NCBI GenBank assembly: GCA_021464245.1
Contig: JADCRB010000028.1
Location: forward strand, 7,009,612-7,073,611
Direction of reading: 5' to 3'
Origin: Carallia brachiata
Taxonomy: Eukaryota > Streptophyta > Magnoliopsida > Malpighiales > Rhizophoraceae
Length of the DNA: 64,000 bases
The stretch's first letter is position 1, and every line of letters begins with the position of its first letter. The notes beneath the pieces were generated by a model. The model searched no databases. It was not told the DNA's origin and saw nothing but the letters and a program-made list of their open reading frames with translations. Made by a program: the position numbers and the translations under genes. Positions 1 through 37,481 of the stretch are shown here, piece after piece.

Positions 1-559
1 CTTCATTTCCTACGTATTTTTACTCTGCAGTATACTCTCTTAACTCCTTTTTTGAGAGATATTTCAGGGGTAAACTCCAAAAAATTTGCTGTTTCATTTT
101 TAAAGTTATTTTTGGGTTTATATTCTCTGATCGCTCTAGATCTGAATTTATGATAATATAGATCTGAAAATATCAAAATATTACAAATCTGGCTGGGATT
201 AAATCTCATACGACCCTCAGCAAAATCCAGGCAGTTCATCCGAGAATAAGTCCCCTCGACCCTCGGTGAAATTAAGCTAGATTGGCTCAAATCAGATCTC
301 TGCAGTTCTTAACCGTAGTCTAAATATCCAAATCAGATCTAATTTCAGTCTACCCAGTTCAAGATAAAGCTGTGGAAATTATTTCTGTCAAGATCAAGTT
401 CGTGCAGCTCTTGACGGAGAAAAAAAAAAAAGAACACTAATCGGAGGATCTACGGAGATCGACCCCACGTAAATTTTCTTTTATTTTTAAATTTTTATTT
501 GTAATTTATTTTTGTATTATTGAGTCTAATTGTTACAGGCTCAAAATTTACCCGTTACA
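1..559 (+). mobile_element. 5' LTR, left-truncated by window edge
   Basis: Matches 9542-10101 nearly base for base, with about 30 substitutions or short indels. It ends in CCCGTTACA, as the 3' LTR does. The U3 part with the TATA box lies before the window. Confidence 0.92.
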
Positions 560-752: not shown

Positions 753-2072
753 ATGACACCAAAAAGAAGTACAGCTGTTGGTACCAACAAGAAGGCAACG
801 GCTCCATTGCCTGCATCAACTACCCTACCTGGGTACGCAGGTCCAGAAACCCGGCGGACGGACACAATTTCTTACCGTCCAAACCCGACAAAATATCGAA
901 ACAGAGAATCCACAGCTTGCACAGCAACAGGATCTCTCCTCTGACTCTCTTGTCACATGGAGGAGTCGATCACCCACCCCGATCGAAGTCGGGGGCAACG
1001 CGACGAAACCTGCTCAACAGAATCTAACTCATTCTGTAGAGATCCACACAGAAGAATCAGAACAGTTTTCTCCTCCAGTCTTTCGCGGAGCCTCATCTGT
1101 TGCCGTCATGATGACCAACACAACCAGTACAGAAGAAAGAATTTCAGAATTGGAGAACAAGATTTTGCAGCTAATCAGAGTCGTTAAGGAAAAAGATCAA
1201 CAGATCGCCACTCTCAAAGGAAAAGCCCCAATCCAAATTGATCCCGAAATCTGCGAGAAACAACCATATCCACCCGGTTTCACTCCAGAAGCCACACCAG
1301 CCGACGTCTTCACTGCAGAAAAGCGACCAGGTAGTTCTACACAGCTGCCACCCTCAAATTTTGTAACTTCGCTATCTGTTCAACAACTGCAGAAAATGAT
1401 AGCTAATACGATCCGTCTGCAATAAGCTACATCCTTCCAAGGATCACAGATGTACGTTAAACCGTACACTAGACGGATCGAAAGTCTCAACATGCCTCTG
1501 GGCTACCAGCCGCCCAAATTTCAACAATTCGACGGACGAGGCGATCCCAAACAGCACATCGCCCACTTCGTTAAATCCTGCAACAACGCAGGGACTTACA
1601 GAGATCTCTTGGCGAAGCAGTTTGTTCATTCACTCAGGGAGACCGCTTTCACATGGTTCATAAATCTTGAACCAGAATAGATCGACAGTTGGGAACAGCT
1701 ACAACGAGAGTTCCTCAACAGATTTTTCAGCACTCGAAGGACGGTAAGTATGATGGAGCTTACCAGCACCAAACAAAGGAAAGGAGAGCCCGTTGTCGAA
1801 TACATCAACAGATGGCGTGCCCTCAGCTTGGACTGCAAAAATCGTCTGACGGAGACTTCTGCCGTAGAGATGTGCATCCAGGGAATGCATTGGGAGCTGT
1901 TATACATCTTGCAGGGTGTCAAACCCCGAACTTCGAAGAACTGGCGACCCGCGCACATGATATGGAGATAAGCATCCAGACTTCCGGAGGCACGGTTCCC
2001 ATCCAGTTGGACCAGCAAGGGGGCAGAAGGGAGATTAAGAAACCCAACAGCTCCGGAAAAGGAAAGAAGTGA
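753..2072 (+). pseudogene. gag: Tat retrotransposon gag, broken
   Basis: The structural Gag protein would form the particle that packages element RNA. A proline/alanine-rich N terminus begins at ATG 753 and appears to change frame near 850. The next segment has a predicted coiled coil (about 1125-1205: ERISELENKILQLIRVVKEK). The core follows from 1450, with YQPPKFQQFDGRGDP, FVHSLRETAFTWF and EYINRWR, typical of plant retrotransposon gag. Lesions visible in the core frame are TAA at 1423-1425, TAG at 1678-1680 and a frame change near 1925-1935; beyond it the ELATRAHDMEISI motif continues in another frame to 2072. It cannot make a full-length Gag as written. Confidence 0.85.
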
Positions 2073-2716
2073 TGACTGTTGAAGCCGCACCAGTAAAAGT
2101 GGGCGCCAAAGCTAAGGTAAATCCTCCGACCCAAATAACTCAGCCAAAACAACAGGAAAGGCGGAAGGTGACATTGCGAGAGTTGGAGCAAAGCAGTATC
2201 CATTCCCGACTCAGACGTCCCCGACATTCTTGAACAACTCTTGGAGGCGAAGCTGATCGAACTCCCAGAGTGCAAGCGGCCGAATGAAAAGGATCGAGTC
2301 AGCGATCCGAGATTCTGCAAATATCACCGGATAGTAAGTCATCCAACCGAGAAGTTTCGTCCTGAAGGAGCTAATCATGAAGCTCAAAAGCCAGAATAAA
2401 ATCATTCTGGACCAGGAAGGTAACCTCTGCAAACCAGACCACCATCACTTCAAAACCATCAGAAGAGGTGACACACCGTAAGGAGGAGCCGCTCGACAAC
2501 AAAAAGTCGACAACGGAGAAGGTATATGAAGCTCTCCAAACCCTTCTCGCTAACCCTCAGCTGTTTACAGCTTTGCAATCAACAGAAGTGTGGCAAAATC
2601 AAGTCAGCAATACTCTCCAGACCTCAGCTGAATCTGCCATCAAAATTCTAACTCGCGGAGCAACAGACGGCCCAAAATCACGTCGGATGTTACTCTGCTA
2701 TCTCATTTTCAGATGA
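2073..2716 (+). pseudogene. Gag C-terminal/linker segment with CKYHR motif
   Basis: Between gag core and protease. Around 2290-2400 the plus strand codes pieces reading FCKYHRIVSHP and then, after a frame slip, LKELIMKL, a histidine/cysteine motif seen before the protease in Tat/Ogre-type elements. A second open piece (2468-2716) has no known domain. Reading frame changes occur near 2360 and again near 2690, before the protease. Confidence 0.6.
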
Positions 2717-3770
2717 GGATCTCCTGCTGGGGTCCAAACCCCACAATCGGCCGCTGTATGTATCAGGCTATGTGAGAGAACAGAAGGTCCGACGTATTCT
2801 GATCGACGATGGCTCAGCAGTCAATATTATCCCAAAATCCACCATAAAGGAGCTCGGCATCGGCATTGATGAATTATCAGACAGCCGCTTGATGATTCAT
2901 GGCTTTAATCAAGGAGGACAGAAAGCAATTGGGATGATTCGCTTGGAGCTAACTATCGGTAATCTCACTTCTAGCACTCTTTCACGTGATGATGCACGTA
3001 CCACATATAAGATGTTGCTAGGACGACCGTGGATTCATGGAAATGGAGTTGTGCTCTCAAGCCTGCATCAGTGCTTCAAGTACTACAATGGTGGCGTTCA
3101 AAAGGTCAATGCTGACTTAAAGCCGTTCGATGATGCTGAATCACATTTGGCGGATGCAGTCTTCTACACCGACACAGACAATCCGGAGATCATTCCATCA
3201 AAAGCTACTTGGACTGGGGGCATCCACAAAAAGGGAAAAGCTGTCGAAGAACCTGCCAATGCCCCCCAGGCTCCAACAAATGAAAAGCTGCCACAGCCTG
3301 CTGAACTTCGTCCGAAGGATGTTGCATCTTCAAGCTCCACTCCAGTCCTACGCTATGTGCCGAAGTCACGACGCTCAGAAGGTCAACCCCCTTTCTCTTA
3401 TTGTATTGATTCTAAACAGGAGCAAGGACATAGCCAACCCAAGACAAAGGAGCTGCACAACCTGAAGGAGACTTACACTCTGCCGATACCAAAGATTGAG
3501 CCGGTTTTGTCTTCAAAACCATTAAAAGGCTTCGTCAAACCACACACGGGGGCAGTCGAAGGCGGCTCACTTCCAGAAAGAAGAACACATGAAGGATTTG
3601 ATCCTAATGCATACAAGCTTTGGCAAAGGCGGGCTATGACTTCTCAAACCCGAGCACAATGGGTACTCCACACATGGCGCTTCTCAAACATCACAGTCCC
3701 GACCTGGCTTAGGCTATCAGGAGAAGTCACCTGTGCGGATCACGCTAAAGAGCCGAAGCCGAGCAGCTGA
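2700..3770 (+). pseudogene. pro: Aspartic protease domain and linker
   Basis: The protease would cut the Gag-Pol polyprotein. The frame open from 2772 reads RILIDDGSAVNIIPKSTIKE (about 2793-2852), the active-site loop with D-G-S and the following hydrophobic strand, and then LLGRPWIHGNGVV, the conserved second half. In many retroviral-type proteases the motif is D-S/T-G; here the middle residue is Asp. The rest is a low-complexity linker rich in Pro and Ser. Frame changes are visible between about 3610 and 3730, where the linker continues in other frames. Confidence 0.8.
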
Positions 3771-5037
3771 TGCACGTGCCATCACCACCACCACCAAACA
3801 AGACAGGCTTATCCAGTCAAACAAAGAAGGTGAAGTCAGAGGTTCTGCATTTCATGTCACAATTAGCGAGGAGGCTGAGTCCGACTCATCAGATGGTGAA
3901 GTGAAGGAGGCTCCCCCGGAACTTGAAGATGGTGGCCAAGCAACTGTTGATGAACTCAAGGAGGTCAATCTTGGCTCTCCGGAAGATCCTCGACCTACAT
4001 TTGTAAGTGCTTTACTTACTGCAGAAGAAGAGCAAGAATATGTTCAGGTATTAAGTCAATACAGGGACGTGTTCGCATGGAGTTACAAAGAAATGCCTGG
4101 ACTTGACCCAAAAATTGCGGTGCATCGTCTAGCAGTAAAGAAGGGTGTTCGTTCTGTCAAGCAGCCACAACGACGGTTCCGCCCGGAACTCATTCCACAA
4201 ATCGAGGAGGAGGTAACAAGCTGATCAATGCTGGCTTCATCCGAGAGGTCACCTACCCAACGTGGATTGCCAACATTGTCCCGGTAAGAAAGAAGAATGG
4301 ACAGTTGAGGGTATGTGTTGATTTTCGAGATCTTAACAAGGCCTGCCCGAAAGATGACTTTCCATTGCCCATAACGGAGATCACAGTCGATGCAACAACG
4401 GGTCACGAAGCATTGTCCTTCATGGATGGTTCTTCAGGCTATAACCAAATCAGAATGGCACCAGAAGACGAGGAGTTGACAGCATTCCGCACCCCAAAAG
4501 GTATATACTGCTACAAAGTTATGCCGTTTGGATTAAAAAATGCTGGCGCCACTTATCAACGTGCTATGCAAAAAATTTTTGATGACATGCTGCACAAGAT
4601 TGTAGAATGTTATGTTGATGACTTAGTTGTAAAGACTAAGAAGCGCAAAGACCACCTCGAGGATCTCAAGACAGTGTTCGAAAGACTTCGGAGGCATCAG
4701 CTCAAAATGAACCCTCTCAAGTGCGCATTCGGTGTCACATCAGGAAAGTTTCTTGGGTTCGTGGTGCGCCATCGTGGAATCGAAGTTGATCAGTCAAAGG
4801 TTGAGGCAATTCAAAAGATGCCTGAACCTAAAAACCTGCACGAGCTGCGAAGTCTACAAGGAAAGCTGGCCTACATTCGCCGTTTCATCTCCAATTTAGC
4901 TGGGAGATGTCAACCTTTCCATCGGTTGATGAAGAAGGATGTCAACTTCGAGTGGGACGAAGCTTGCAGCAAAGCCTTTGAGAGCATAAAGAAGTACCTT
5001 TCCAATCCAGTCCGGAGCTCCAATTCAAGGAAAGTCG
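3733..5037 (+). pseudogene. pol: Reverse transcriptase, split by frameshifts
   Basis: RNA-dependent DNA polymerase of the element. Approach sequence DVFAWSYKEMPGLDP lies at about 4070-4113. After a one-base frame loss near 4214 (EEV then NKLINAGFI) the RT core runs in the frame of 4305: CVDFRDLNKACPKDDFPLP, DGSSGYNQIRMAPEDE, MPFGLKNAGATYQRAM and the catalytic YVDDLVV (4609-4629), then the thumb motif GKFLGFVVRHRGIEVDQ. The frame is lost again near 5008. The catalytic aspartates are present, so loss of function is due to the frameshifts only. Confidence 0.92.
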
Positions 5038-6135
5038 TTGATTCTCTACATTGCAGCGCAGGAAAGATCTTTGGGAGCCTTGCTTGCACAGGAAAACGAG
5101 CAGGGAAAGGAAGTTGCCCTGTACTACTTGAGCAGAACACTAAACGGTCCGGAGCTGAGTTATTCGCCCATTGAAAAGACATGTCTAGCACTGTTCTTTG
5201 CCATTGACAAGCTGAGGCACTACATGCAAGCTCACACGGTACGTCTCATTGCCAGAGCTGATCCTGTCAAATATATCTTATCTAGACCAATCTTGTCAGG
5301 ACGACTTGCCAAGTGGGCAGTAATCCTACAAAGCTACGACATTGTCTACGTGCCTCAAAAAGCAGTCAAAGGACAAGCTCTAGCAGACTTCCTTGCAGAT
5401 CACCCTGTTCCGTCAGATTGGGAGTTCACAGATGATCTTCCAGATGAAGAGGTCTTTTACATTGAGACACTGCCACCATGGACGATGTTCTTTGATGGTG
5501 CAGCAAGGCGTGATGGTGCTGGTGCCGGCATAGTGTTTGTCACTCCTCAACGACAAATACTACCATATGCTATCATTCTCGGTGAGTTATGTTCAAATAA
5601 TGTTGCTGAATACCAGGCTTTGATCATTGGTCTTCAAATGGCTGTCGATATGAAGATTCCAACTATAGAAGTCCATGGAGATTCCCAGCTCGTCATCAAC
5701 CAACTTACAGGATTGTATGATGTGAAGAAAGAGGACCTTGCGCCTTACCATCAACGTGCTCGACAGCTAATGGATGAATTTGAAAGCATCACCTTGGAGC
5801 ATGTGCCTCGACGAGAAAACACTCAGGCAGACGCGTTGGCTAACCTGGCCACTTCTCTTGCAAAGTCAGAAATCCAGGCTACAGTTGTTGCCGTATGCCA
5901 GAAATGGATAGTGCCACAGAAGGATGATGAAGAAACTACAGCAGCCAACGCTGTATCTGTACGTCTCGCGGAGGACGGAGATTGGCGCCAACCAATCATT
6001 GACTACCTACAGCACGGGAAGCTGCCCGAAGATCGTCGTCATAAGACAGAAATTCAACGACGAGCTCCCCGCTTCATATATCTCAAGGATGCTCTGTATC
6101 GAAGGTCTTTTGATGGAGTTTACTTCGCTGCCTAG
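5038..6135 (+). CDS. RNase H plus second (archaeal-type) RNase H, open segment of pol
   Basis: A 365-codon open segment holds two RNase H folds in tandem. The first (about residues 1-120; LYIAAQERSLGALLAQ, SPIEKTCLALFFAI, GQALADFLADHP) is the usual Ty3 RNase H that follows RT. Its first catalytic aspartate (normally in LxxDAS) is replaced by Ala. The second (about residues 148-275) has FFDGAARRDGAGAGIVF, NNVAEYQALI, VHGDSQLVINQL and RRENTQADALA, keeping the D-E-D-D set. In the Tat lineage the extra RNase H is thought to have taken over the activity. The frame ends at TAG 6133-6135, before the integrase zinc finger; the continuation is in other frames. Confidence 0.85.
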   Translation: MILYIAAQERSLGALLAQENEQGKEVALYYLSRTLNGPELSYSPIEKTCLALFFAIDKLRHYMQAHTVRLIARADPVKYILSRPILSGRLAKWAVILQSYDIVYVPQKAVKGQALADFLADHPVPSDWEFTDDLPDEEVFYIETLPPWTMFFDGAARRDGAGAGIVFVTPQRQILPYAIILGELCSNNVAEYQALIIGLQMAVDMKIPTIEVHGDSQLVINQLTGLYDVKKEDLAPYHQRARQLMDEFESITLEHVPRRENTQADALANLATSLAKSEIQATVVAVCQKWIVPQKDDEETTAANAVSVRLAEDGDWRQPIIDYLQHGKLPEDRRHKTEIQRRAPRFIYLKDALYRRSFDGVYFAA

Positions 6136-7220
6136 CAATGAAGAGGCAAAACAGCTCTCGCTGAAGCACATTCTGGTGTTTGTGGCGGACATCAATCGGG
6201 CCTAAGTTGCACTTCCAACTCAGAAGGATGGGATACTACTGGCCAACCATGGTACGTGATTCAATTGAGTTTGCTAAAACTGTCAAGCTTGTCAATTTCA
6301 TGCAATTACATACATCAACCACCGGAGCCACTGCATCCAACTGTCTCATCCTGGCCCTTTGAAGCTTGGGGTCTCGACTTAGTGGGGCCCTTGCCAAAGT
6401 CATCCCTGGGTCACCTGTACATCCTCGCAGCAACCGACTACTTCTCAAAATGGGCTGAAGCCATTCCACTTAGAGAGGTAAAGAAGGAGCATGTTGCCAA
6501 TTTCATCCGGACTCAGCTGATCTATCGCTATGGAGTCCCTCGATTCATCATCACTGATAATGGTAAGCAGTTCTACAACAGCTTAATCGACAAGCTCTGC
6601 GAGAAGTTCAAGTTCAAGCAGTACAAGTCATCCATGTACAATGCCCCAGCAAATGGCTTGGCCGAAGCATTCAACAAGACCTTATGCAACCTGTTGCGGA
6701 AGGTAGTCTCTAAATCCAAAAGAGATTGGCATGACAGAATTCCGGAGGCATTATGGGCGTATCGTACAACTTACCGGACTCCAACACAGGCGACGCCATA
6801 CTCACTTGTCTAGTCGGTGTCGAAGCAATACTGCCGTTGGAAACACAGATTCCATCCTGCGCATGGCTGTTCTGGAAGGACTCACACAGGAGGAGAATGC
6901 TCGCCTACGTCTGGATGAGTTAGAAGCCTCGATGAAAGGAGGCTCGAAGCACAACAGCAACTTGAGTGCTACCAAGCCCGGCTCACCAACACGTTCAACC
7001 GCAGGGTCCGCCCTCGATCTTTTCAAGTTGGAGACCTTGTTCTTGCAGTGCGACGGCCCATCAACATGAAGCATCGGCCTGGTGACAAGCTTACTTCCAA
7101 ATGGGACGGGCCATACTAGTGCAGGAGGCCTACACTCACAACGCTTACATGCTGTCAGACCAAGAAGGCGTCCGAATCGGCCCAATCAATGGTAAATTTC
7201 TGAAACAGTATTATGTGTAA
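6136..7220 (+). pseudogene. int: Integrase, frameshifted
   Basis: Would insert element cDNA into the genome. The zinc-finger part begins near 6170 (VCGGHQSG), followed by MGYYWPTMVRDSIEFAK in the frame of 6180. A one-base loss near 6282 removes the two finger cysteines from that frame. The catalytic core is in the frame of 6256: FEAWGLDLVGPLPKSS, then RFIITDNGKQF and NGLAEAFNKTL give the D-D-E triad, followed by WAYRTTYRTPTQATPYSLV ending at TAG 6811-6813. The C-terminal region is traceable in pieces (RMAVLEGLTQEENARLRLDE; FLKQYYV) to TAA 7218-7220. No chromodomain is visible, as expected for Tat. Confidence 0.87.
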
Positions 7221-7309: not shown

Positions 7310-7600
7310 AAGTCCCGATCTGAAAGTCCAAGCGAAAATCCAAACCGAAAATCCAAACCCAAACACTTGAGCCCAATTCAAAAGCCTGAAAACTAAGTCC
7401 AGACTCAAAACCCAAACACTCAACCCAAATCCAAAATCCAAGTCCAAACCCAAACACTCGACTTAAATCCAAAAATCCAAGTCTAAAAGCCCAAACACTC
7501 GACCCAAATCCAATTCAAAGCCCAAAACCCAAAAATTCCAAGTTTCAGACATAGTCCAAACCCAAGTTCAAAATTCAATCCAACTCCTGGCCCGCATGAG
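7310..7600. repeat. CCAAA-rich irregular tandem repeat upstream of WOX ORF
   Basis: Degenerate units of about 12-35 bp such as CCCAAACACTCGACC and AAATCCAAAATCCAAGTCC recur across the tract. The reverse strand reads open as a GF-rich peptide, which is a repeat artefact. Confidence 0.7.
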
Positions 7601-7624
7601 TATAAACTGTGAACGACCCAAAAA

Positions 7625-7632
7625 TATAAAAG
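7625..7632 (+). promoter_or_regulatory. TATA-like box upstream of WOX ORF
   Basis: TATAAAAG stands 88 bp before the ATG at 7720, followed by a C/T-rich leader without upstream ATGs. This spacing fits a plant core promoter with a short 5' UTR. It is position plus motif only. Confidence 0.4.
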
Positions 7633-7719
7633 CGACGGAAGGTTTGAGTCTGAAACTCAGCATCAGTCTCAACCGATCTTCACCACCTACCAGACCTTTG
7701 CTCCTCTGCCACAAGAAAG

Positions 7720-8346
7720 ATGGAACCAGTTGCAGAACCTCAAGACAAGGGAGAAGAAAGGTCACCTCGCACAAGGTGGCAACCAACCATGGCACAACTG
7801 CAAATTTTGGAGGAAGTCTTCCACAACAATGGAGGTATTATGCCTAAGGCATCTCAGATTTACCAACTTGTCTCACGATTGCGCCCGCTCGGGGCAATCG
7901 AAGGAAAAAATGTGTTTTATTGGTTCCAGAATCGGAGAAGCAGGAAGAAACCAGCACTGAGAGCTGCTTTTTCCAAAGAACAGTCTGCCGTTCCGATAGT
8001 AAATCCCACATGTACAACTTCGCCCTCAAATGAAGCAGGTCTGAGTTCTACCACGGCAATGGTCTCTTCAGGCTATAACGATCAAAGCCGTAGCCTGTGG
8101 GAGCATGCGTACTGGTCCTGGTGGTCTTACGGAGTCAGTCAAGGTTTCATTCCTCCTAAGTACTTAAGTTCAGGAGGGACTTTTCTAGCAGAAGGAAGTC
8201 ATTCCGGCGAAACTTTGCCTCTCTTATCAGAATATTTCAGCAGCATCGACCAGCCGGGAGGCTCCAGCGACGTCAACATCATCGGCCCACCAGACGAGGC
8301 CGAGCTTGACTTGAAGCTGCGCCTTGGGCCCCGCCAGGACGGCTGA
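7720..8346 (+). CDS. WUSCHEL-related homeobox (WOX) protein inside the retrotransposon
   Basis: A 208-residue, intronless ORF. Residues 17-77 form a homeodomain of WOX type: RTRWQPTMAQLQILEEVF (helix 1), IYQLVSRLRPLGAIEGKN with the WOX-specific long turn, then VFYWFQNRRSRKK as recognition helix with the invariant W, F, N and R. WOX proteins are nuclear transcription factors that set stem-cell and organ identity. Residues 165-169 (TLPLL) resemble the WUS-box (TLxLFP), lacking the final F-P. Residues 196-202 (LDLKLRL) fit an LxLxL EAR-type repression motif. The start has a good context (AGAAAGATGG). Known WUS-clade genes have introns, so lack of one suggests capture through RNA. It sits between integrase and the 3' LTR in element orientation. 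It may be an expressed captured gene or a passenger; selection cannot be judged from one copy. Confidence 0.85.
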   Translation: MEPVAEPQDKGEERSPRTRWQPTMAQLQILEEVFHNNGGIMPKASQIYQLVSRLRPLGAIEGKNVFYWFQNRRSRKKPALRAAFSKEQSAVPIVNPTCTTSPSNEAGLSSTTAMVSSGYNDQSRSLWEHAYWSWWSYGVSQGFIPPKYLSSGGTFLAEGSHSGETLPLLSEYFSSIDQPGGSSDVNIIGPPDEAELDLKLRLGPRQDG

Positions 8347-8358
8347 TAAGATAAGGTG

Positions 8359-8424
8359 CAACGTCTTCTGCAGCACACGGCAACGATTTCTGCAGCACGC
8401 GGCAACGACTTCTGCAACACACGG
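8359..8424. repeat. Three 22-bp tandem repeats just after the WOX ORF
   Basis: Units of the form CAACGNNTTCTGCARCACRC plus GG stand at 8359, 8381 and 8403, with a decayed fourth start. They begin 13 bp after the stop codon. Confidence 0.85.
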
Positions 8425-9289
8425 TAAGGACTTTCGTAACCCGCATCAGCCGCTGCCTCTTTTGTCTCTTATGAAGGAAAGGGACGTGGATGACCCTACT
8501 TAATTCTGCGTACCCTCTTTTTGACTTTTCAAAAAAAAAAAAAAACTCTTTATTGTTTGTATATATATCCTGCATGCCCGAGTTGTAATACTCACCTCTC
8601 AGCTCTTCTTTATCTCAAAAAGAAAATGACAAGTCTCTGCACTTGTTTCAGAAAGTTTTTTTATTAAGAAGTTGGAGGTGCACGAGCTAAGAAAAGAAGA
8701 AGTAGTCCTCCTCGAGGGATTTCTAAAAACCCTCGAAATTCAGTCTCCAATGTTATCGGTGTCATGGAGTTCCAACTACTCTCCTTAGTTCACATCTACC
8801 ACAGAGGGATGAGACGCTGCAATCATCCTAATCTTCCTTTAAATGCGAAGACGTATAGGGAAGTTCCAACTACTCTCCTTACGTCGGAGCAGACTCGGGA
8901 GTCATCACTACAGTCAGTCTCTCTGTGTGCAGGTCTTGAAGTTCCGAAGTGCTGGACCTTCCTCTTGGGGAGGTTCAAGTTCTTTGCCTACCGGATCATA
9001 CTCACCAGAGCTTTGGAACTTCGAAGAACCTTTACTAGCCTTTGCGAGCTATGGAAGCTCGAACTCACCTAGAGCCAAGACTTCAATTTTTATATTGGCT
9101 GGGCTGCTAACTTTCTCAGGATCGTATCTGTTTCCTGTTGAGATCCAACAAAAGCAGGTCTAACCGGAGATAGAAGGTTTCAACATTCAATGTTCATTAG
9201 AACATCTCAAGTTTTAACCTGGACTTCAAGATTCGGTTCGGATCACGCCCGTAAAGTTCTTCCTTACCGACCCTTGAAGTAGGGGCATT
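8425..9289 (+). other. 3' non-coding part of the element with polypurine tract
   Basis: No recognisable protein. The string GTTCCAACTACTCTCCTTA occurs twice (about 8770 and 8865), so part of it is an internal duplication. GAAGTAGGGGCATT ends directly before the 3' LTR (9276-9289) and is the candidate polypurine tract. Confidence 0.6.
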
Positions 9290-10101
9290 TGTAAAAGACG
9301 AAAAAAAAAAAGAAGGTTGACTACTGTGGTCGGCAATTGCCGATCACAGCAGCCAATAGCCACCAACTGCACAGCTAGTGGCTTTAATTTTCTTCCTTTC
9401 AAACAATATTTTCACATTGAAAGGAGCCCTATAAATAGGCCCCTGCCCCTCAGTTCAAAACATATTCAGCAAATCTGTAAACAGAAAAATCCAGAAAATT
9501 TGAGAGAAAAAGAAAATTTTGAAAATCTCTCAAGAAAATTTCTCTATTTCCTACGTATTTTTACTCTGCATTATACTCTCTTAACTCGTTTTTTAGAGAT
9601 ATTTCAGGGGTAAACCCCAAAAAATTTGTTGTTTCCATTTTTAAAGTTATTTTTGGGTTTATATTCTCTGATCGCTCTAAATATGAATTTATGAGAATAT
9701 AGATCTGAAAATATCAAAATATTACAAATCCGGCTGGGATTAAATCTCATACGACCCTCAGCAAAATCCAGACAGTTCATCCGAGAATAAGTCCCCTCGA
9801 CCCTCGGTGAAATTAAGCTAGATCGGCTCAAATCAGATCTCTGTGGTTTTTAACCGTAGTCTAAACGGCCAAATCAGATCTAGTTTCAGTCTATCCAGTT
9901 CAAGATAAAGCTGTGGAAATTATTTTTGTCAAGATCAAGGTCGTGCAGCCCTTGACGGAGTCAAAAAAAAAAGGAACACTAATCGGAAGATGTACGGAGA
10001 TCGACCCCACGTAAATTTTCTTTTATTTTTAAATTTTTATTTGTAATTTATTTTTGTATTTTTGAGTCTAATTGTTACAGGCTCGAAATTTACCCGTTAC
10101 A
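9290..10101 (+). mobile_element. 3' LTR, complete (812 bp)
   Basis: Begins TGTAA and ends TTACA, matching inverted ends of an LTR, directly after the polypurine tract. From 9542 on it aligns with 1-559. A TATA box and the start of the transcribed region are inside. Confidence 0.9.
9430..9437 (+). promoter_or_regulatory. LTR TATA box
   Basis: TATAAATA followed by GGCCCC, in the U3 position of the LTR about 140 bp from its start. The equivalent in the 5' LTR lies off-window. Confidence 0.7.
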
Positions 10102-11787
10102 ATCTGATATAAAAAAATCCATCAAATATTTTCCTTGCATTTGTAGATTATTTTATTTTTTCAATTCAGACAGAGTTAAAAAAAATAATAAAATAAAATA
10201 GGGGAACCATGTACCCGAATTAGACTTATGGGACAACGGTTCGCCCAATTTTTTTTTTATAATTCTTTAATGGGTGGGTGTTATCCAACCCACCGGTTCC
10301 AGAGAGAGGAAAAGAATAATAATAATAATAATAATAAAATAAAGACGGAGGGGGTGGGCGGCTTTTTAAGGGCCGTAGCCCGTAGCCCATAGCGATGGTT
10401 GTCGGCAGCTTATAATAAACTAAAGAAGATAAAAGAGTTTAAAAATTATTTTCTAGTTAGCAAGCGTGGTCCGTTTCAGCGATGCACCAAATTAAAAAAT
10501 AATAATAATATGGTAAAGAAAAAGAGGAAAATTACTTAAAATAAGTTTGCTACCTACTCTTGCAGCCACAAGATTATTATTAAGTGATAATTATGAAAAA
10601 ATTTAAATCTAAATTAATAATAAAAAAATAGTCCAAATAAAATCGATACCCTTAAAAAAGTAAATGAATAAGCCAATAACGTTAAATCATTGTTAATTAA
10701 AAAATATATGTATTTAATGTGACAAAATTCATTTATTTTAATTAATATTTTATATTTGTACGATAAAAATCACTTAAATTTAAGTAATAAAATTGCTATA
10801 GAGGCATTAAACATTTTTTAAACTTGAGTATTTTTTTTTACGTAAGCATAACTTATTAATTAAGGTAAGTGAAATTCGTGACGTCAATTACTGTCAGTTC
10901 ATATTACTAACAGAGCTATGGGCTGTTTTTGTCTGGTCTACAGCAATCCTCGTGTACAACCGAAAAAATGTTTAGGAACTAAAAAGATTTGAGCCTTCTG
11001 ATTGACGGTATATATATTAGGCCAGGAAAAAGCTAAACAATTATCCCTCTTTTAATTAAATTAAAACCGTTATTGGTTTGTGTTAAAAATGCGAAAAAGC
11101 AATTACACTCACTAATGAGTTGAAGGACTTAAAGGAGAACAGCAGCAGCAATCGTTAAAAGTCCAACCCGCCGTTGTTTGAATATCACTCCAGACTTAGC
11201 AGTAGAAACAACAGGCAGAGGGGGATCCATGTTTCTGGGAATCTGGACGTGTGTTTTGTTTTTTTTTCTGAGAAAATGGCTAAATCGAAGTTGCCGGATT
11301 AGATTCGATTGTCACTTATTGACCACTCCTGTTGACTGGGATGCTTGATTGACGGGAAAATGAAGGAAACTAGAAAGAGAAAAAAAAAAAAACAAACATT
11401 TTAAGGAATAAATAAAATGGAGATGATTTATAATTTAACTTATATATTTTAGTAAGTATGACTTACTCATAATCTTACACCATATAATTAATAGAATTTA
11501 TTTGAAATAAAAAAATAAATTGTGTGACATTAAATTATAAATAAATTTTACTCACTAAAAAAAAAATAAAATTAACAAGTATCATAAATAAATTGGTAAC
11601 TAGGAAAACTAGTTTAAGCCCTTATCTCTCATCCTTAATATGGAAAATGGATACAACTTGGATACATTCTCAACTTAATGAATCGCAACCATTATCATCG
11701 TGCAAATAACAAAAAAGACATGCAAAAACAAAAATTTATATTCATTATTGTATATTTGTGAATTCTTGTCTGTAATTGTGTTCATTT
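10102..11787. other. Intergenic, no gene seen
   Basis: AT-rich sequence with AAT microsatellites (about 10315-10337 and 10498-10510). No ORF with recognisable protein similarity and no clear repeat ends were found. Confidence 0.6.
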
Positions 11788-13036
11788 GGCCCCGTTTGGT
11801 AAGGATTATTTTTTCTGTTTTTTGTTTATTTTTCATAAAAAAAACAGAAAATATGTGTGGTATCGTTTTTGTTTTCTATTTTTTTATTGAAAACTTGAAA
11901 GAATTTTCCAAAAAAAAAAATGAGAAAATAATAAAAAATACTTTCTCAATTTATTTTTCATTTTTTTTTCTATACTTTCTCTCACAACATTTTCTCTCTT
12001 TATCCACCCTCTTCATTATGTCTCTCTCTATTCATCCTCTCGCTATCCCTCTCTATTTTTTCTCTCTCTAATTTTCTCTCTCTATGCTTTCTCTCTCTAC
12101 CCTCTCTCTCCTTTTTCTATCTCTACCATTCTGTCTACTTATTCTCTCTCTACCCTCTCTATCTCTCTTCTTTTTCTCTCTGTCATTCTCTTTTTACTCA
12201 CACTCTCTCCTTTTCTTACTCTACCATTCTTTTTACTCATTATCTCTCTACCCTCTCTCTCTCCTTTTTCTCTCTCTACCATTCACTCTTTGCCCTCACT
12301 CTCTCCTTTTTCTCACTCTGCCCTTCTGTCTCCTCATTCTCTCACTACCCTCTCTCTCCTTTTTCTCTCTCTACTCACACTCTCTCATTTTTCTCAATCT
12401 ACCACTCTTTCTATTCATTCTCTCTCTCTTTTTCTCTCTCTACCATTCACTCTCTACCCACACACTCTTTCCTTTTTCTCACTCTACCATTTTCTCTCCT
12501 CATTCTCTCTCTACCCTCTCTCTCTTTTTTTTCTTTCTCTACAATTCACTCTACCCACACTCTCTCTTCTTTTTCTCAATTTACTAATCTCTTTACTCAT
12601 TCTCTCTCGACCCTCTCTCTCTCATTTTTCGCTCTACCATTTAATCTACTCATTCTTTCTCGACCCTCTCTCTCTCTTCTCTCTCTGTCATTTTCTCTAC
12701 TCATTCTCTCTCTATGCTTTCTCTCTCTACCCTCTCTCTCTCCTTTTTTCTATCTCTACCATTCTCTCTACTCATTCTCTCTCTTTTCTATCTCTACCAC
12801 TCTCTCTATTCATTCTCTCTCTACCTTCTCTTTCGCTCTCCTCTTTTTCTCTCTCTATTCATACTCTTTTTTACTATATCTCTCACTATCTTTTATCTAT
12901 CTACTTCTTTATTTTTGTAAAAAACAAAAAACAAAAATTATCAGTAATAAACACAAAAATTCAACAAACAGCAAAAATAGGAAAACAAAAAATAAGAAAC
13001 AATAACAAAAAATTGTCAACGTCTCCAAACAGGCCC
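11788..13036. mobile_element. Non-autonomous TIR element with CT-rich core
   Basis: The ends GGCCCCGTTTGG (11788-11799) and CCAAACAGGCCC (13025-13036) are inverted with 10 of 12 matches. The subterminal regions are also A/T-rich mirror-like (TTTTTTGTTTATTTTTC against AAAAACAAAAAACAAAAA). The ends resemble those of PIF/Harbinger- or hAT-type MITEs. No clean target-site duplication is visible, so the superfamily stays open. Confidence 0.55.
11955..12890. repeat. CT-rich low-complexity tract
   Basis: Repeating TCTCTCTACC and related words over more than 900 bp. It gives long Ser/Leu/Phe-rich open frames on the plus strand that are composition artefacts. Confidence 0.9.
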
Positions 13037-34199: not shown

Positions 34200-34561
34200 C
34201 TGCAACCACAATTTTCTTTTCACCAGTTAATTTTCTGGCAAATATTAAAAAAAAATGTGAGGATTAATCTATGGTAACATTCAAGTTATCGTACTTGTTG
34301 AGATAAATACATGGCATAAAAAAAAATAATAATAAAGCCTTACTTTTTAAGAAATTATATGGCATCAAGGTTCCATATTCTTCTCTCTTCTAACAGTATT
34401 AAATTTGTACACTAAAATGAATTAAACGTTAGATAATAGTCCTGGATTCTCAACGGACAACACAAAAATGTTCATGTTTGTGTCTCTAACGACCCATTCT
34501 AGCCCCACACACAAACAAAAACTAGAAAATATAGAGTTAGAACGTGAGCGTATAAGCGTAC

Positions 34562-37481
34562 CATTTCATTAAATAAGGGCATTGAAGTATCACTTGCTGA
34601 TTCAATTTCCATGAAAGGTGGAATCATTGCGGATTGCTTTTGTCTTGAGCCAGACGCCGTTGCGGATGCAGGATGCACTTTCCCTTTCGAACAAAAGCTT
34701 CGGAGCAGTGGCAGTTGCAGCTTCAAGGAGTATAATTGAGCGAATTCCACCACTTCATTTTTATCATCCTCTTCTTCTTCTACTTCTCCATTTTCATCAG
34801 CAAATAACACTTCTATATCACTGCAGTCTATTATTTCCATTTCGCCAAGCTGTTGAAGGTTTCTTCGAATCGTGGAAAACAGGAAGAGATTCTTCAATTT
34901 GTTGCAGCTTCTGACTTTTAGGATTCTTAGTTTGCAGAAGTCCCCGTCCAAAAGTTTCCTCGCAGAAATGTTGTCTAGGTTCACCAGATTCTGCAGAATC
35001 AACGTCTCCAGGACAGGAAATGCATAACAAGGCCCCAGCCTTTTTAAGTCAATGATATGTCGAATCTCTGTACTGTTTTGAACACGAAGATGCTTTAGCT
35101 GTGGAAATCCTTCACTGTCTAGATAATATAGTACATTGTTGATTCCCTCCAATTCATCCAAATAAAGATCTTCTACGTCCTTCAATAAAGTCTTCAACCC
35201 ATGCTTCGAGTGAATGCTTGTATCCAGCTTCAACTTTAACGTTCTTGAAGTTTGATATTTGTCACCCCAGTCCCACACATCGCCAATGAATATCTTGAAT
35301 CTTTCCAACTTCTTGGAAGATAGCCTCCTCTGTCGTAGTTTCTTGGCATCTGGCACATGAATCTCCAAATTTGTTAGAGGCAAGCACTCCAATTCAGATA
35401 GACTTGCGTTGCTTTGATTATCGGGACGTTTGACCTCCCAATTAACGAAGCTGTCACCCATCAGCAGTTCTTCTAACTTTGATAACTGTGACAAGACATT
35501 TTCTGGAATGAATTTGAGTTTCGAACATTTGCTCAAATCTAGAAACTTGAGTCGAGCCAAGTGCACCAGATTTCTTGGCAACTCAACTATTTCAGAGCCC
35601 CAAAGGCTAAGGATTTCAAGATTCTCTAGTTGCATCACGACAGATATGTCGTGCAATGTACACAAGTCCAAACACAACGTATGAAGGCTTGCTAGGGAGC
35701 CCAGTGATGAAGGAAGAGATGAGAAACGCGTCTTTGATAAGTCCAGCACTTGAAGCTTTGTTATCCCTTCGAAAAAAGAATCGGGGATGTTCGAGGAGCG
35801 ATCTCCCCCATACAAGCGAAAGAACTCTACCGTTGGGCATTTCGACTTCAGACAGGCCATAGAAACATCACAGATGTCAAGACAAACTTTTGTACAACTT
35901 TTAGTATCCATTCCTTGGAATTCCTCCAACGAAGCACCACCGACCTTGAATCTAAATTGAGATTTGGATGCAATTGAGGCAGCAGCGTCTTGAACAACAT
36001 CATGCATTCTGACGCAACCATGCGTTTCACTCTCTGACAACAAGCACGAGCCTTTTAGCTCTTCAATCAACTTATGGACTCTAAGTCGGGCAGCTTCCAC
36101 CGTGCGTACGCCTTTAAGTAGACCCAGGCCCATACTATACTTCAACAAGTCTATGATCCATATATCAAAACTCGTAAATAGACCACAGAGCAAAAAAAAC
36201 GACTTGACTTCGTCATCAGGCAAATGATCATAACTCAACTGTAGACAAGACTTATATTGCTCACCTTTAGACGTAGACAGTCGGTTTAAAGCATCCTTCC
36301 ATATGTTGATATCCTTGTTCTTTAAGGCACTTGCCACCGTGACAAGTAAGATAGGCAAACCTCCACACTCCCTGGCCACATTTTCGGCTATAGATTGCGA
36401 TTCTGGAATTTTGAGGCCACCCAGCGTCCTCTCAAATAAAGCCCATGACTCCTGTGGGTCTAAAACATCGAGCATGACCTCTTTCTGCACTCCCATGTCA
36501 TTGGTCAACAGATCCCGACTTCTTGAGGTCATTAACAGTTTGCATCCCTTGAGATATTCTTCTTTCCGTTCCAACTGAGAATCGACCGGAAAACCTTCGC
36601 GCAAGAAGTCAGCTCCTCCACCCTTGAACAATTTCTCATTGGTTAATAGAATTCCCAAATCTTTCAGTTCAATTTTTTTCCAGAGATCGTCCAAAATTAT
36701 AAGGACCTTATTTTCTTTCTTCAATCTCTGAAGAAGTTCAATTGATCTTCCATACGGTCTCCTTCTCGAATTTCAAGTCTAGCACGTCTGCAATACTCCT
36801 TTGAATCTCTTTGAGATCTGGATTTTGAGATACAGTTGCCATAGCCACGACATCGAACAACTTCCCTTCAAGAGCTTGCCTGTGGACCTCCTCTGCCAAA
36901 GTGGTCTTACCCGTTCCGCCTGTGCCGGAGACACCTATCATATTGACATTTGGATTGGGATCTGTCAATGCAACCATAACTTCTTTGAATTTGGAAGCTC
37001 TCGAAGGCAAGTCCTCGAAACCATGAAGGGATGAAGAAACTATCTGCTGTGAAGCGGGCCGGTAGGATATTTGATTCCGATCAAATTTGCCCTCATTCTT
37101 CAGACCTTCAATGGCCAAAGCTTTTTTGGCTGAATTTTTCCCAAGCTGATAGCGGGTATTTATGTTGGGACACCACCCAGCAAAACACTTCTTCTTTGCC
37201 TCTTCTTCTTCGCTTTGAGTAAGCTCCCCAGCCTCTTCAATGGCCTTCTGGGCATCAGTCAGCCACTTTACAACGTCAGGCTGGATCTCGTACCCGTTCC
37301 TCCGATATTCTTCAGCAGAGTTCTGCAAGCTCCCTCTTGTAGCGGCCAGGTTCTCAACCTGATTCTTGAGCTCTGCAACCTTCCTTGCGTAGCAAAAAGC
37401 ATATCCGGCATGCCGTATCACGGGGCCGATGGTGTACTCAAAAACAGTGGGAGCTATGGAAAGAATGAATTCCAAAGCCAT
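34562..37481 (-). pseudogene. Gene A exon 1: CC, NB-ARC and first LRRs, frameshifted
   Basis: ATG at 37479-37481 (AAAAATGGC context) opens a 247-codon frame. It has a hydrophobic N terminus (ALEFILSIAPTVFEY), a coiled-coil region to about residue 90, and the P-loop GVSGTGGTGKTTL at 183-195. A frame change near 36755 ends it; the next frame takes over at about 36724 with kinase-2 (LIILDDLW), RNBS-B (CKLLMTSRSR), GLPIL and MHDVV, all present. Canonical LRRs follow (LQVLDLSKTRFSSLPSSLGS; LKFLDLSKCSKLKFIP), then irregular ones. About 25 extra residues lie between kinase-2 and RNBS-B. The donor is AATG|GTACGC. Without the shift the exon would code close to 970 residues. Confidence 0.9.

Follow-up and report, generated by a model that had tools for sequence, protein, structure and literature searches.

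The stretch of DNA analysed here, which we call the window, comprises 64,000 nucleotides of the Carallia brachiata assembly GCA_021464245.1 (contig JADCRB010000028.1, positions 7,009,612-7,073,611 of the forward strand), and the whole assembly (337.5 Mb in 164 contigs) was the search space for genomic copies. The beginning of the window is occupied by an LTR retrotransposon of about 10.35 kb with the 5-bp target-site duplication (TSD) ATCTG on both flanks. Its features are collected in Table 1; they include an unbroken ORF of 627 bp on the forward strand. The gag and pol frames of this copy are interrupted, as the initial annotation had claimed. No Pfam family reached the cut-off in two ORFs tested from the gag-like region, and the 332-codon ORF tested from the protease region was also without a Pfam match.

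Table 1. Features of the WOX-carrying retrotransposon (positions are those of the window)
Feature	Position	Strand	Basis or remark
5′ LTR, last 559 of 812 bp	1..559	+	first 253 bp precede the window, from -252
gag-like region (by position; frames broken)	778..2771	+	present again in most sister copies
Protease region by position, between gag and reverse transcriptase	2772..4304	+	ORF list and sister-copy alignment
Reverse transcriptase	4305..5174	+	Pfam RVT_1, E 7e-33
RNase H, then second (archaeal-type) RNase H, a Tat hallmark	5038..6135	+	Pfam RT_RNaseH, RVT_3
Integrase region; frame stops at 6813	6256..7192	+	Pfam rve, E 3e-11 (6256-6813)
Block upstream of the WOX ORF, TATA-like AATATAAAAG near 7625	7570..7719	+	60-base block comparison
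WUSCHEL-type (WOX) ORF, 208 codons	7720..8346	+	ORF, Pfam, PDB, genome copies
Homeodomain, residues 17-77	7768..7950	+	Pfam, PDB, AlphaFold model, omega 0.35 across subfamilies
WUS-box-like motif TLPLL, residues 165-169	8212..8226	+	aligned ORFs
EAR-like motif LDLKLRL, residues 196-202	8305..8325	+	LDLxLxL in 8 of 8 aligned ORFs
Noncoding stretch up to the polypurine tract GAAGTAGGGGCATT (9276-9289)	8347..9289	+	sequence and sister-copy comparison
3′ LTR, 812 bp	9290..10101	+	LTR alignment
Target-site duplication ATCTG	10102..10106	.	second copy directly before -252

The two LTRs are identical at 528 of 558 aligned bases (K2P 0.054), which corresponds to about 2 million years at a plant rate that we take to be 1.3e-8 per site per year. 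The window copy looks mosaic because 39 other loci match its integrase at 99-100% (best 40 of 989 candidates scored) and yet its LTRs differ by 5.4%. The segments 3′ of its integrase are 85-87% identical to one young copy that has a near-identical integrase. The window element is an older, decayed and apparently mosaic copy, and gene conversion is perhaps the cause of its mosaic structure. Elsewhere in the window there are a long, pyrimidine-rich simple-repeat array (12025-12880) and, on the reverse strand at 23453-62689, a series of NB-ARC/LRR-like disease-resistance genes and of LRR fragments (e.g. 34499-37481), which were named by eye from the translations.

A match to RVT_3 at residues 152-271, after RT_RNaseH in 5038-6135, identified the second, archaeal-type RNase H by which the Tat clade is recognized. 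This domain lies between the RNase H and the integrase, an order reported to mark the Ogre/Retand part of the clade (PMC6317226). The Retand lineage is described as including elements without some of the coding domains (Vicient 2025, PMC11963269). No antisense Transposase_28 (PF04195) was found: five antisense ORFs of 87-154 codons, three of which sat in the stretch between pol and 3′ LTR of the window element or of the gag-pol-less element on C116, had no Pfam match up to E 0.1.

Residues 17-77 of the WOX ORF match the Pfam family Homeodomain with E 2.9e-12 and a score of 46.6 bits, the cut-off being 22.9. A PDB sequence search with the ORF returned two sequences, WUSCHEL 6ry3 (E 4.5e-18) and STENOFOLIA 6wig. 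In the AlphaFold model the 10-residue blocks from 21 to 70 had pLDDT values of 89-94 and contained three helices, the remaining protein being of low confidence. At E ≤ 0.001 the model had 11 PDB matches, every one a WUS or STENOFOLIA homeodomain. The C-terminal part carries two motifs that we take to be a WUS-box-like and an EAR-like motif. The first is TLPLL in the window and TLPLF (4) or ILPLF (3) in seven other aligned ORFs, and the second has the form LDLxLxL in all eight. The sole match to Pfam EAR was below cut-off and lay in the young protein, away from the LDLxLxL motif. Pfam, the PDB search and the domain map confirmed the reading of this stretch in the initial annotation, namely an open, sense, 208-codon ORF between integrase and 3′ LTR with a WOX homeodomain at residues 17-77, TLPLL and LDLKLRL.

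The ORF is present at many loci. A DNA search with the window ORF, in which the best 40 of 1209 candidates were scored (the window's own locus included), found 39 further loci at 93-96% identity. The order integrase - WOX - 3′ LTR was identical in all ten neighbourhoods fetched, that of the window among them. Compared with the window, the nine others were 93.9-96.2% identical in WOX, 91-98% in most of pol and mostly 82-90% in the noncoding 3′ stretch and the LTRs, a contrast that is biased upward because these nine copies were selected by WOX identity. Five elements were chosen by integrase alone, their WOX content not being known beforehand. All five carry the WOX ORF at the same place. The claim thereby passes the refutation test that the initial annotation had set for it, namely sister elements without the ORF and an ORF lying between LTR fragments of different elements. 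WOX lies within 2 kb downstream of at least 17 of the 40 integrase loci (the window, the five fetched elements and eleven recognized by coordinates); at C2:45455, one of the other 23, the nearest listed WOX is about 5.5 kb away. LTRs and TSDs bound the WOX-carrying element in the three cases checked, and WOX was found in several gag-pol-bearing subfamilies as well as in a compact element without gag-pol. The gene is therefore placed as expected of a gene capture, inside a complete element with TSDs and at the same position in several copies. Its earlier description as a WUSCHEL-type gene transduplicated into a Tat element, and mobile together with it, is supported by the ten neighbourhoods and the five integrase-picked elements, and it is almost certain that the WOX gene was captured and is a standing part of the element family. 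The possibility that a WOX retrogene came by chance to lie between LTR pieces of unrelated origin was rejected: the window element has the same TSD on both sides and the gene order is constant in the ten neighbourhoods, and the probability left to such an accident is negligible.

The state of the frame was followed in two protein searches. With the protein of the young subfamily, the best 150 of 2306 candidates were scored and all matched; 118 of them, counted by eye, cover residues 1 to 202/203 with no stop. Stops interrupt 13 and another 19 are partial; an identical protein is encoded at 11 loci, that of the query included. With the WOX protein of another plant (best 150 of 1341 candidates scored), 93 of the 147 non-host loci had a stop-free frame of 222 codons or more, one of these being an assembly-gap artefact. 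A frame of 1615 codons at C88:1202960 was rejected since it contains an assembly gap. Because both searches rank by similarity, their counts of open copies are minimum numbers and give no unbiased fraction. With up to two mismatches allowed, the genome has 132 occurrences of a 46-base motif from the young helix 3 and 0 of the reversed control. A frame open by mere chance is refuted by the 39 further loci and by the 118 scored relatives that are full length without a stop. Three of 30 copies of the window's subfamily have neither a frameshift nor a stop ahead of codon 205, so the initial annotation was fair in its caution against reading selection from a single open copy. Frame changes near WOX codons 10-16, in a purine run, recur in L058, L059, L070, L080, L087 and L090. 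One element (L046, on C119) contains a tandem partial duplication of the WOX ORF, and at C1:425229 another partial WOX copy adjoins. The plasmid collection searched gave no match.

Two copies of the element without gag-pol were dated. The first, in L049, is 4991 bp long, has the TSD GGCTA and LTRs that are 98.6% identical (K2P 0.006), and has inserted into an older WOX element, within the RNase H region of the latter. The second, on C116, has the TSD GGGAT and an LTR K2P of 0.014. The gag-pol of the window had no match in either. The longest ORF listed between the LTRs of both is WOX, the listing for the copy on C116 stopping 760 bp before its 3′ LTR; the copy in L049 has a further ORF of 148 codons, which starts in the noncoding 3′ stretch and reaches into the 3′ LTR. 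The WOX ORF of the C116 copy is whole, and that of the L049 copy has lost one base near codon 10, after which it is open. This element becomes clearly homologous to the window near 7570, some 150 bp ahead of the WOX start codon, and remains so as far as the LTR. A young open WOX is also carried by a gag-pol-bearing copy on C58, the integrase of which is 99.4% identical to that of the window. The LTR of the gag-pol-less element (about 6970-7270 in L071; 3559-3775 in L049) contains tandem repeats of about 47 bp and a 94-bp-spaced repeat.

The source of the gene was sought among WOX proteins. Against 19 WOX sequences, the homeodomain of the commoner element type has identities of 42-52% (44-46% with the two host WUS sequences), and that of the young type 36-46%. 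Among named hits, the nearest to the host WUS is from Hevea. A homeodomain tree placed five element ORFs together on a long branch and singled out no donor. In alignment, the element homeodomain has a loop with one extra residue, at which all nine rows labelled WUS-type are ungapped and nine of the ten other WOX rows are gapped. A profile of eight element ORFs had 462 matches among 5.8 billion proteins. Among the 120 listed, identities were 32-51%, the specific names were nearly all WUSCHEL and no element-like protein was present, so the WOX element family is either lineage-restricted or omitted from annotations. Given the longer loop shared with WUS and the profile matches named WUSCHEL, sequence likeness makes WUS the most likely donor. 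With a homeodomain about 45% identical to host WUS, either the capture is old or change has been fast. The element ORF is unbroken from the homeodomain to the EAR-like tail, and in the host exons, as read by eye, the WUS frames stop a short way past the homeodomain, which would fit loss of the donor introns.

The host exons also bear on the possibility that the gene serves the host, as a domesticated or dosage-altering WUS paralogue or as a source of small RNAs that tune host WUS. The top three hits of the WOX-protein search were host WOX exons, named by reading as two WUS-like and one WOX5-like, and the genome does hold the two WUS-like exons beside more than 100 element copies. The best DNA match between the element ORF and the host WUS exons is, however, 35 bp at 86%, and the copies are dispersed, with element TSDs where checked, and occupy no single conserved locus. 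A role in the service of the host is thus very improbable.

Selection on the ORF was assessed with a GY codon model applied to 15 open copies, 13 of which were found via a homeodomain-ranked search and all of which were chosen for being open. The dN/dS check proposed in the initial annotation had a divided outcome: it failed for the whole ORF, where omega was 0.78 and not significantly below 1 (2dlnL 3.06), and held, with the sampling bias just described, for codons 1-64 (omega 0.26, 2dlnL 19.9) and for the homeodomain (omega 0.35, 2dlnL 12.1), both of which are constrained. The values for codons 65-97 (0.58), 98-160 (0.94) and 161 to the end (1.45) were not significant. Earlier runs with 10 and with 8 sequences gave the same picture, with omega 0.24 for codons 1-64 and, with 8 sequences, 2.6 for the end. 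Codon positions were counted in the integrase-picked copies. In codons 1-64, three of 8 pairs had differences of 0/1/7, 1/0/6 and 1/0/5 at positions 1/2/3, and the five more distant pairs had 8-9 at position 1, 1-2 at position 2 and 7-11 at position 3. A +1-frame control gave similar ratios for these codons in 4 of 6 pairs. Position bias in the homeodomain (residues 17-77) reached p < 0.05 in 2 of 7-8 pairs, which share sequences, and codons 78-207 had no bias in any of the 8 pairs. Selection on the homeodomain is probable on this sequence evidence, the mixed codon-position counts reducing the odds.

Much of this could also be explained if a WUS transcript had been captured once and simply copied along, its open frames reflecting young insertions and not function. 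The whole-ORF omega does not differ from 1, and the whole ORF has diverged between the window and the young subfamilies as much as noncoding DNA (85% identity, against 86% for the noncoding 3′ stretch). None of the five integrase-picked copies has its whole ORF open, the two dated gag-pol-less copies have very young LTRs, and changes in the old subfamily look neutral, a singleton-versus-shared variant test there finding no clear in-frame deficit of replacement changes. We nevertheless consider such passive carriage unlikely. The homeodomain half is constrained by the codon model and, in part, by the position counts; the WUS-box and EAR-like motifs persist at only about 45% homeodomain identity to host WUS; and no internal ORF longer than WOX was seen in an element that has amplified without gag-pol. 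The combined results suggest that a source lineage was selected in the first half of the gene and that its copies decayed neutrally after insertion.

Constraint might alternatively act on the sequence as DNA or RNA, through promoter, packaging or polyadenylation signals near 7570-7911 and 8530-8590, the protein being incidental. The 60-base blocks of 7570-7719 are 92-98% identical between the window and three young copies; for comparison, one gag-pol-bearing copy is 88-93% identical in the stretch on the integrase side and the 3′ noncoding blocks are 67-98% identical. The 150 bp or so before the start codon are thus as conserved as the first codons, and it is in this same block that the gag-pol-less element begins to be clearly homologous to the window. 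The low omega of codons 1-64 and their position bias in three of 8 pairs are, by contrast, coding signatures, and they make a purely nucleic-acid function improbable.

The subfamilies differ in helix 3, which reads NVYFWFQNRRHRE in the young one and NVFYWFQNRRSRK in the window. In the homeodomain numbering that we assume, the young changes fall at positions 47 and 54, which are able to face bases. The difference suggests from sequence a change in the DNA target of the protein. Exchange between WOX subfamilies may explain helix 3 as well as adaptation does, because synonymous differences are also high in this stretch. Between L052 and L061, codons 65-97, which include helix 3, are more diverged than their flanks, at silent and replacement sites alike.

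We hypothesize, with a probability of about 60%, that a Tat element captured host WUSCHEL and kept it as an accessory gene acting on the element's behalf, which we consider the best explanation. A Ty3/gypsy retrotransposon of the Tat lineage would have acquired a spliced host WUSCHEL copy, probably through RNA. Lying in sense orientation between integrase and 3′ LTR, this copy would have been retained as an accessory gene. The WOX protein would be made from its own short promoter, to which the TATA-like block may belong, or from LTR transcripts. Its WUS-type homeodomain would bind DNA and its WUS-box/EAR-like tail would recruit a co-repressor, and the resulting repressor could work in trans, its targets being promoters of the host or of elements in meristem cells, in which insertions become heritable. 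The spread of copies with broken ORFs and of elements without gag-pol would follow from action in trans. That the protein serves the element as a transcription factor is, as read from its sequence, a little short of an even chance. Neither the two LTRs tested nor the upstream block had more WUS-type DNA motifs than shuffled sequence, and nor did the noncoding 3′ stretch apart from one pattern. Paired TGAA occurs there twice, a number reached in 9 of 200 shuffles, and as one of 20 tests this result was not trusted.

Plants do not set a germ line aside early, so the heritable copying of an element must occur in or before the shoot stem cells. These cells are a plausible site of action of the WOX protein, since they lead to the gametes. 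Raised silencing-gene expression and transient element expression have been described in them (PMC7560203), and WUSCHEL is reported to help exclude RNA viruses from them (PMC10589665). We tentatively propose that the stem-cell factor became a regulatory gene of the element, comparable to the accessory regulators of complex retroviruses, which might alter the meristem state or blunt WUS-linked defence to the benefit of germ-line copies; the gag-pol-less satellite would use the gag-pol of others, and helix 3 would have been retargeted. Whether shoot stem cells are a bottleneck for elements has been called an open question (PMC7560203), and an element that encodes a WUSCHEL-type factor makes it directly testable. 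A relative of a developmental master regulator has here reached more than 100 open copies away from the normal locus. Surveys of WOX genes and regeneration studies in the same plant group could overlook or miscount the WOX of the element.

The WOX element is a case of host-gene capture by an LTR retrotransposon, which is a known process. We know of none among the captures in maize Bs1, sorghum and rice that is a developmental regulator kept across subfamilies at such a copy number. Those captures likewise place host sequences inside elements, usually in sense orientation, and many of the captured sequences in sorghum are reported to be expressed (PMC7264820, PMC13317346). No LTR retrotransposon bearing WUSCHEL or a homeodomain was found in the open-licence literature searched, and the terms WUSCHEL, homeo and WOX are absent from the texts of PMC11963269, PMC7264820, PMC9289625, PMC6317226 and PMC13317346. 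A screen for unusual domains in gypsy elements described B3, AlkB and others (PMC9289625). The B3-bearing elements also retain a host-like domain, B3 being the DNA-binding domain of plant transcription factors, whereas the WOX element carries nearly a whole transcription factor, C-terminal motifs included.

Elements of the Retand lineage likewise have extra ORFs between pol and 3′ LTR (Vicient 2025, PMC11963269). Their known extra domains are antisense, with Transposase_28 in 97% of clusters, and according to that survey none of the sense ORFs in this stretch encodes a known domain, while the ORF described here is in sense orientation and WUS-like. Compared with WUSCHEL itself (6ry3, 6ryd and 6ryl; host sequences L067 and L068), the element ORF has the same homeodomain fold, the EGKNVFYWFQN core and the loop that is longer by one residue, together with C-terminal motifs of the TLPLF and LxLxL types. 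It differs in having WFQNRR in place of WFQNHK, a homeodomain identity of about 45% and, in the young subfamily, NVYFWFQNRRHRE in helix 3. Unlike WUSCHEL, it is a gene of about 205 residues with no visible intron that is present in many copies inside a mobile element.
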